A DNA stretch of 64,000 nucleotides from Kribbella capetownensis (lineage in GTDB: Bacteria; Actinomycetota; Actinomycetes; Propionibacteriales; Kribbellaceae): assembly GCF_004331485.1 (NCBI RefSeq), contig NZ_SJKD01000018.1, positions 1 through 64,000 on the forward strand, read 5' to 3'. How positions within the stretch are numbered: the stretch's first letter is position 1; every line of letters starts with the position of its first letter. A program made the translations under genes and the position numbers. Below, in pieces: positions 25,748-26,180 of this stretch. A model generated the notes under the pieces. The model was not told where the DNA came from and ran no database searches. It saw only the letters and a program-made list of their open reading frames with translations.

Positions 25748-26180
25748 TTCGGGGTCATTCCACTGCTGAACAAGTACCGGCGTCCGTTGCTCGGGGCAAC
25801 CATCAAGCCGAAGCTCGGGCTGTCCGCCCGCAACTACGGCCGGGTCGTCTACGAGGCCTGCCGCGGCGGCCTCGACCTGACCATCGGCTACACCGTAATG
25901 CAGTCGATAGCGCACTGGGCGCGACAGAACGGCGTACTGCTGCACCTGCACCGGGCCGGGCACTCGACGTACACCCGGCAGAAGACGCCGTGAGCTTCCG
26001 GGTGATCTCGAAGTGGTGCCGGCTGATGGGAGTCGACCACGTCCACGCCGGGACTGTTGTCGGCAAGCTCGAGGGCGACCCGGCCACGACCCGCGGCCGG
26101 GTCGCGCTCGAAGCCGTCGTCAAGGCCCGCAACGAAGGCCGTGACCTGCTCCGCGAAGGACCCGACGTACTGGGAGCACC
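25748..26180 (+). pseudogene. cbbL: RuBisCO large subunit (cbbL) remnant
   Basis: Four collinear pieces of a form I RuBisCO large chain. Piece 1 (25748-25882) reads [20 protein letters not shown] and [17 protein letters not shown], keeping the active-site Lys of TIKPK. It breaks off exactly before the carbamylated Lys-Asp-x-Glu motif. Piece 2 (to ~25990) reads [18 protein letters not shown]. After a stop/frameshift (apparently 4 bases lost), piece 3 (25990-26090) reads [20 protein letters not shown] and VVGKLEGDP. Piece 4 (26098-26180) reads [20 protein letters not shown]. The N-terminal domain and most of the barrel are missing. Not functional. Confidence 0.85.

Follow-up and report, generated by a model that had tools for sequence, protein, structure and literature searches.

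The RuBisCO large-subunit gene (cbbL) of Kribbella capetownensis is very probably a unitary pseudogene, lying within the eroded remnant of a horizontally acquired Calvin-cycle island of ~45 kb. By the window we mean the whole 64,000-nucleotide stretch of DNA that was analyzed. We propose that the common ancestor of the window species and a relative (genome G015) would have gained the island at a site flanked by two core genes, that selection on it then lapsed in the window species, and that seven deletions (~42 kb), closed by end joining at 0 to 6 bp of shared sequence, would have left ~2.9 kb containing scraps of the cbbL, GAPDH, phosphatase, and sulfurtransferase genes together with two whole regulator genes. 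The loss of the island is based on remnants collinear with G015 (C44:626657-671722), on empty sites, and on the deletion junctions, whereas horizontal acquisition, relaxed selection, end joining, and the occurrence of more than one event are the parts that we infer. The preliminary description suggested that the lineage had once carried a carbon-fixation gene and lost it; this is supported, except that the loss is of the whole island and not of one gene.

Loss of an acquired autotrophy island is an ordinary process, and the evidence for it is unusually clear here. Gene loss is usually inferred from absence, but here an empty site, an intact island, and a half-erased remnant are all present in one genus, in which the gain and loss of carbon fixation are traceable base by base. 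This bacterium has lost a CO2-fixing ability that its relative G015 still encodes.

The cbbL pseudogene

The RuBisCO large-subunit remnant occupies positions 25763-26181 of the window and is made up of three pieces of a form I cbbL, collinear at the DNA level. A profile search of the whole genome gives three PF00016 matches in the window, at 25763-25882 (E value 2.2e-13), 25880-25987 (3.9e-8), and 25987-26106 (3.0e-10), all exceeding the curated cut-off, and the translated pieces, scored as peptides, give 1.1e-25 and 2.3e-11. DNA identity to G015 cbbL is 94% over 25763-25883, 93% over 25872-26097, and 95% over 26097-26181. The first piece (25763..25876, plus strand) corresponds to codons 155-192 of G015 CbbL and falls within PF00016, its alignment extending to 25883 through shared sequence; the second (25877..26097, plus strand) starts at codon 263 and carries a 4-bp frameshift deletion near 25987; the third (26098..26181, plus strand) starts at codon 414 and is ended by a 2.1-kb deletion that took the 3' end of cbbL together with cbbS and cbbX. 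No codon before 155 is present in the window copy, and the stretch FTKDDEN of G015 CbbL, which we take to be the site of the carbamylated lysine, falls inside a deletion of ~210 bp. The window cbbL therefore has neither the continuous reading frame nor the carbamylated-lysine motif of a functional form I gene. A shortened working CbbL, formed by two in-frame deletions of about 210 and 228 bp, was considered and dropped because the 4-bp deletion breaks the frame and the window copy lacks both the carbamylated lysine and every codon before 155.

The preliminary description had read this locus as four collinear blocks with deletions between them, one frame change, and loss of the carbamylated-lysine motif. 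Six-frame translation recovers all four peptide blocks where they had been placed, although at the DNA level there are three blocks separated by two internal deletions relative to G015 (those of about 210 and 228 bp); the frame change is the 4-bp deletion, and the missing motif lies in the ~210-bp deletion. The RuBisCO pseudogene is thus real, but the feature to which it belongs is larger than had been noted, extending over ~23601-26541.

The island remnant in the window

The whole remnant (23601..26541, ~2.9 kb, with edges approximate to about 10 to 20 bp) lies between two core genes. The left core flank gene (22969..23583, minus strand) overlaps a segment, 22993-23600, that aligns with the empty site of genomes G036 and G029 beside their cupin_5 flank, and its G015 counterpart has no NCBIfam match at 1e-5 and no Pfam match at 1e-4. 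The first island gene is an intact MarR-family regulator of 154 amino acids (23615..24079, minus strand; PF01047, E value 2.7e-15), whose protein is identical to that of G015 at 153 of 155 aligned positions (stop counted). It is followed by the 5' piece of a sulfurtransferase gene (24138..24295, plus strand; family match below its cut-off) that is truncated by a deletion of ~2.8 kb, the block stopping at G015 C44:671030 within the gene at 670327-671187. Next are a piece of a HAD-IIA phosphatase gene (24294..24639, minus strand; 92% identical to G015 C44:668269-667924), a family call made from a scan of part of the protein with matches below cut-off, and two pieces of a GAPDH gene (24659..24986, plus strand) that correspond to G015 C44:643439-643304 and 642728-642521 and are separated by a deletion of ~0.58 kb; GAPDH domains are found in the copy in a second genome, G014.

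The second intact gene codes for an XRE-cupin regulator of 218 amino acids (24987..25643, minus strand) with HTH_3 and Cupin_2 domains and 94% DNA identity to G015. The 35 genomes that lack form I cbbL contain no DNA match to it at an E value of ≤1e-10 (13 to 15 first-look candidates per genome scored), and it is therefore assigned to the island. The MarR and XRE-cupin regulator genes are the sole whole island genes left in the window. The region upstream of the XRE regulator (25644..25763), which aligns with G015 C44 to 641735, separates that regulator in G015 from a divergent nitrile hydratase beta gene starting at 641713, and a 12.0-kb deletion begins within it. Beyond the cbbL pieces, 26182..26278 (plus strand) is intergenic DNA from downstream of cbbX (G015 C44:626765-626657, 94%), and a probable truncated BlaI-type (Penicillinase_R) gene (26279..26553, plus strand; E value 0.0032, below cut-off) forms the island edge. 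The same edge in G014 carries a Penicillinase_R gene (1.8e-25), to which the window scrap has a weak blastp match (0.001), and the scrap is largely absent from G015, which retains ~60 bp; most low-scoring matches of 26270-26560 are noise and were discarded. The right core flank is a Cupin_5 gene (26558..26977, plus strand; PF06172, E value 4.3e-50), and the DNA from it to 28900 is matched, at least partly, in all 38 genomes.

Empty sites and the intact locus in a close relative

G015 is the nearest of the 37 other genus genomes by right-flank DNA, with 96% identity compared to 71 to 86% for the others in the matching parts (seven first-look candidates per genome scored). To the right of the remnant 5.4 kb aligns to G015 at 96%, and to the left there is a 15.7-kb block at 94%. 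Between the same two core flanks G015 carries an island of ~45.1 kb (C44:626,597 to ~671,722), and an intact cbbL (478 aa) is present at the same locus in this sister species, where the preliminary description had suggested looking for one. The G015 island sits in a 695-kb contig between core genes, and that genome is listed with 10% contamination.

The uninterrupted site is also available. Among the 6 of 36 other genomes that were compared for it (G036, G029, G014, G005, G033, and G020), the flanks are joined at positions equivalent to window 23597/26544 in G036 and 23600/26542 in G029, the flank matches in these two genomes meeting or overlapping by up to 6 bp. The flank matches are ~90 bp apart in G014 and 334 bp apart in G005, and G033 and G020 have no island, with the left flank gene also unmatched. 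An empty site in outgroup genomes and an intact orthologue at the same site (G015 C44) are thus both seen. With regard to a mobile island borne by an integrase or a tRNA gene, no tRNA gene was found in the window or in eight flanking loci, and no recombinase was recognized among the family matches.

Tempo and selection

The Ks values between the window and G015 are 0.217 (XRE gene), 0.185 (MarR gene), and 0.17 (cupin_5 core gene), and neighboring high-identity open reading frames, some of which are perhaps shadow ORFs, mostly have values of 0.07 to 0.19. The island genes thus have Ks values toward the top of this range, which would still fit an island that the common ancestor carried. When changes are assigned to branches with the help of G014 as the outgroup, the cbbL pieces have five nonsynonymous and seven synonymous changes on the window branch and zero and four on the G015 branch (two undecided changes omitted), whereas the XRE gene has 2 nonsynonymous and 10 synonymous changes on the window branch and 5 and 16 on the G015 branch (9 undecided omitted). 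This suggests that cbbL may have lost constraint part-way along the branch and that the XRE gene did not, although the cbbL excess is a matter of 12 versus 4 changes, numbers too small to decide.

The low Ka/Ks of the two regulators relative to G015 (0.048 for MarR and 0.079 for XRE-cupin), and the lack of a nonsynonymous excess in the XRE gene on the window branch, argue against a full lack of constraint across the remnant. It is possible, if somewhat unlikely, that the regulators, and with them the DNA upstream of the XRE gene, have been kept by selection and rewired to genes outside the island, as these are the only complete island genes and the XRE gene shows no relaxation on the window branch. 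However, pairwise Ka/Ks also reflects the period before the island stopped working, the regulators may have had too little time to decay since the loss, and MarR, at the island edge, may survive by chance.

Deletions and junctions

Relative to G015, the remnant has seven deletions of about 2,760, 24,480, 582, 12,001, 210, 228, and 2,119 bp, a total of about 42.4 kb of ~45 kb. The shared sequence at the junctions, read by eye from the alignments, is in the same order about 2, 0, 6 (imperfect), 1, 5, 1, and 3 bp. At the junction of the 24.5-kb deletion there is a filler of 19 bp (24640-24658), which has no match of at least 12 bases in a 99-kb stretch of G015 and a single 12-base word in the G014 stretch.

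In the flanks across 6641-59461, scored except for a repeat-rich stretch at 35.8-38.5 kb, no window-side gap within an alignment exceeds 43 bp, and the four larger differences, which fall between alignments (283 to 888 bp), reflect additional sequence in the window; the large losses therefore cluster in the island. The window-only stretches absent from G015 are 22250-22917, 31922-32205, 32312-33147, and 42861-43749. The G015 alignment ends at 59461, and 59462-64000 is unmatched even though ~6 kb more of G015 sequence was compared, which may reflect a rearrangement or another insertion or loss.

The preliminary description attributed the loss to stepwise internal deletion, which is plausible, but one complex rearrangement could yield the same junctions. 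We consider it unlikely that a single such event, for example template switching in repair replication, left all of the fragments at once. The fragments are collinear and in one orientation, the seven junctions lie within about 2 kb with 0 to 6 bp of shared sequence, and one has the filler, as such an event would predict; independent small deletions in unconstrained DNA would nonetheless look the same, and the 4-bp deletion and the nonsynonymous substitutions show that change has also occurred outside the seven junctions.

Calvin-cycle genes elsewhere in the genome

Neither of the other genes expected with a functional form I enzyme, the small subunit and phosphoribulokinase, was found. There is no match to cbbS (PF00101) in the K. 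capetownensis genome, the only genome in which it was sought, and none to phosphoribulokinase (NF011997); among the 38 genus genomes the latter occurs only in G014 and G015, the same two of the 37 others that have form I cbbL. The preliminary description had raised the presence of cbbS or prk elsewhere in the genome as a check. The only other RuBisCO homologue over cut-off is form-IV-like (see below). Because neither cbbS nor phosphoribulokinase was found and cbbL is fragmented, this organism is unable to run the Calvin cycle, and it has no possibility of fixing carbon by RuBisCO.

A search of the genome with 39.2 kb of the G015 island recovered no second island copy among the best 40 of 736 and 40 of 758 candidates. 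The other matches are one of 1.0 kb at 78% over a GAPDH gene (C27), three of 143 to 609 bp at 65 to 70%, one of 346 bp at 72%, and six of 47 to 98 bp at 77 to 89%, one of the six inside the remnant GAPDH piece; all of these are taken as paralogues or chance. Translocation of the cbb genes to another place in the genome was likewise not seen in the cbbS, phosphoribulokinase, or island-DNA searches. The genome is a 31-contig draft, and assembly error, in which the island would be intact in the organism and the contig collapsed, had been named at the outset as a way in which the pseudogene could prove false. This is very improbable, given that the missing genes and island DNA do not turn up in these searches, that the junctions are base-resolved and well within contig C9 (72,370 bases), and that the fragments differ from G015 by 5 to 8%.

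Form I and form IV homologues

The form I reading of the preliminary description holds, and derivation of the blocks from a form IV RuBisCO-like protein, which it had named as the alternative, has a negligible probability and is rejected on the identity comparison: the genome does encode an intact RuBisCO-like protein, but the window blocks have 29 to 34% identity to it in the longer matches, compared with 89 to 100% to G015 CbbL and 84 to 97% to Mycobacterium aquaticum CbbL, and the DNA blocks are 93 to 95% identical to G015 cbbL, which adjoins cbbS and cbbX (neighbor families scanned in the G014 copies). Besides the cbbL pieces, the PF00016 search of the genome recovers two further matches, an intact homologue on contig C3 and one below threshold. 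The former is a 563-aa ORF (L006:8227-9918, C3 about 87.2-88.9 kb) that probably resembles form IV RuBisCO-like proteins, an assignment based on the sequence itself and on how little identity it shares with CbbL. This gene adjoins a dehydrogenase gene and a probable DUF1537-type kinase gene, and we presume the group, with the ORF taken as form IV, to be a sugar-acid degradation set. Across the genus PF00016 has a match at 0.001 in 16 of 38 genomes (K. capetownensis included), and apart from the window fragments only G014 and G015 reach form I strength (457 to 467 bits). Matches of 200 to 224 bits make up the rest and occur in 14 other genus genomes.

Gene content of the intact island

The gene list is drawn from ORF calling on G015 and from Pfam and NCBIfam searches of the G014 and G015 copies; several NCBIfam names fall below the curated cut-off and denote relatives, not equals, and three short or split ORFs (genes 13, 40, and 48) lie outside the family scan. 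The G014 copy is collinear over ~43 kb at 75 to 79% DNA identity, and it is at a different site (contig C7, about 81.4-126.8 kb), the G014 cupin_5 flank being on C4 with an empty site. The sulfurtransferase-MarR pair is at the opposite island end and inverted in G014 (C7, about 81.5-82.9 kb) relative to G015 (C44, about 670.3-671.7 kb). Circular permutation of the island between the two was dropped as an explanation because the pair is inverted and not only moved.

The cbb core comprises cbbX, cbbS, cbbL, cbbR, a class I aldolase, a histidine kinase, a response regulator, an epimerase, and a transketolase, followed by a HAD phosphatase, an MSMEG_0572-like protein, a disulfide-reductase-family flavoprotein, and an OsmC-like protein. 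A nitrile part contains the nitrile hydratase accessory, alpha, and beta genes and is followed by the XRE-cupin regulator and a GAPDH. Coenzyme M-related genes include below-cut-off relatives of XcbC, XcbD, and XcbE, the first of them also close to argininosuccinate lyase, an XcbA-family protein above its cut-off with part of the protein scanned, and a phosphosulfolactate synthase (261 bits, cut-off 280). AllH, AllG, FdrA (420 bits, cut-off 433), and carbamate kinase make up an oxamate-carbamoyltransferase set; AllFGH is the Escherichia coli oxamic transcarbamylase (PMC11326118). The island also codes for a SARP-type regulator, a radical SAM protein, an acetyltransferase, a glycosyltransferase, CbtA, a second GAPDH, phosphoribulokinase, fructose bisphosphatase, a second aldolase-like protein, the HAD-IIA phosphatase, an amidase, the sulfurtransferase, and the MarR regulator. 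We note that it carries MSMEG_0565-0572-type genes.

Hydrogenase, CO dehydrogenase, alkene monooxygenase, and epoxide:CoM transferase were not recognized among the family matches of the scanned island genes, and a search for the NiFe hydrogenase large subunit gave no match in the K. capetownensis genome or in G015 and one in G014. In published surveys the form IE RuBisCO of actinomycetes is associated mostly with hydrogen oxidation (PMC12999727; PMC9561532), a pattern from which G015 departs.

The combination of genes in the relative's island is more surprising than the loss itself, and none of the excerpts of open-licence literature searched described Calvin-cycle, coenzyme M, and nitrile genes together. 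One doubtful reading is that the island joins a complete Calvin cycle, coenzyme M-dependent chemistry, and nitrile or oxamate use as one self-contained module that was purged within one species divergence with its sensors kept. Nitrile hydratase would yield an amide, from which carbamoyl transfer of the AllFGH type, together with carbamate kinase, may feed ATP and CO2 to the cycle, and RuBisCO would fix the CO2. If this is true, the module would be an unrecognized type of autotrophy, or a means of CO2 recapture.

Origin of the island and comparison with known systems

In a CbbL tree of 43 rows (G014, G015, and 41 of 80 named loci), G014 and G015 pair (97/79, just below the starred level) and are joined next by Mycobacterium aquaticum (96/86). 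Their side of the tree holds Actinomycetota rows and one Vulcanimicrobiota row, with 11 Pseudomonadota rows apart. The patchy presence of the island in the genus, its two sites, and the M. aquaticum kinship together suggest that it was probably acquired by lateral transfer. Divergence between the G014 and G015 islands (median Ks of 0.73 for 42 genes) is not clearly distinct from that of the few core genes available, the core ORF lists containing shadow ORFs such that no core median was used; because of this likeness one gain and two gains are inseparable, and there may have been either one old gain with relocation and several losses or two gains, both of which fit.

The G014 and G015 copies group with M. 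aquaticum and then with Nocardia, Aeromicrobium, and others among the Actinomycetota form I CbbL (form IE in PMC12999727 and PMC9561532), in a tree without form-labelled references. Compared with these proteins, the window copy is three fragments that lack the N-terminal domain, the carbamylated lysine, and the C-terminus. The cbb cluster of M. aquaticum RW6 has the same set of HAD phosphatase, transketolase, epimerase, response regulator, kinase, aldolase, cbbR, cbbL, cbbS, and cbbX, with 68 to 93% protein identity to the island and 85% for GAPDH (among the 42 of 80 named loci listed). Unlike the island with its coenzyme M genes, however, the RW6 genome has no ComA match. Of 12 named genomes with related CbbL, 5 have matches to the ComA family, none of which exceeds the cut-off and one of which is weak, and, given their absence from M. 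aquaticum, the coenzyme M part seems to have joined the island separately.

Among plasmid-encoded phosphosulfolactate synthases, the best match to the island protein is that of Methylocystis iwaonis (58%), followed by those of Mycolicibacterium chubuense NBB4 (50 to 51%), Nocardioides sp. JS614 (46%), and Xanthobacter autotrophicus Py2 (40%), the last three strains being, we presume, alkene or vinyl chloride degraders. The coenzyme M gene is plasmid borne in those organisms, whereas in G015 it is chromosomal, within an island that also carries Calvin-cycle and nitrile hydratase genes. The loss of rbcL in parasitic plants and of other carbon-fixation genes likewise leaves a heterotrophic lineage with RuBisCO remnants. 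In contrast to rbcL loss in parasitic plants, the case described here concerns a laterally acquired bacterial island for which the intact allele and the pre-insertion site are both available.
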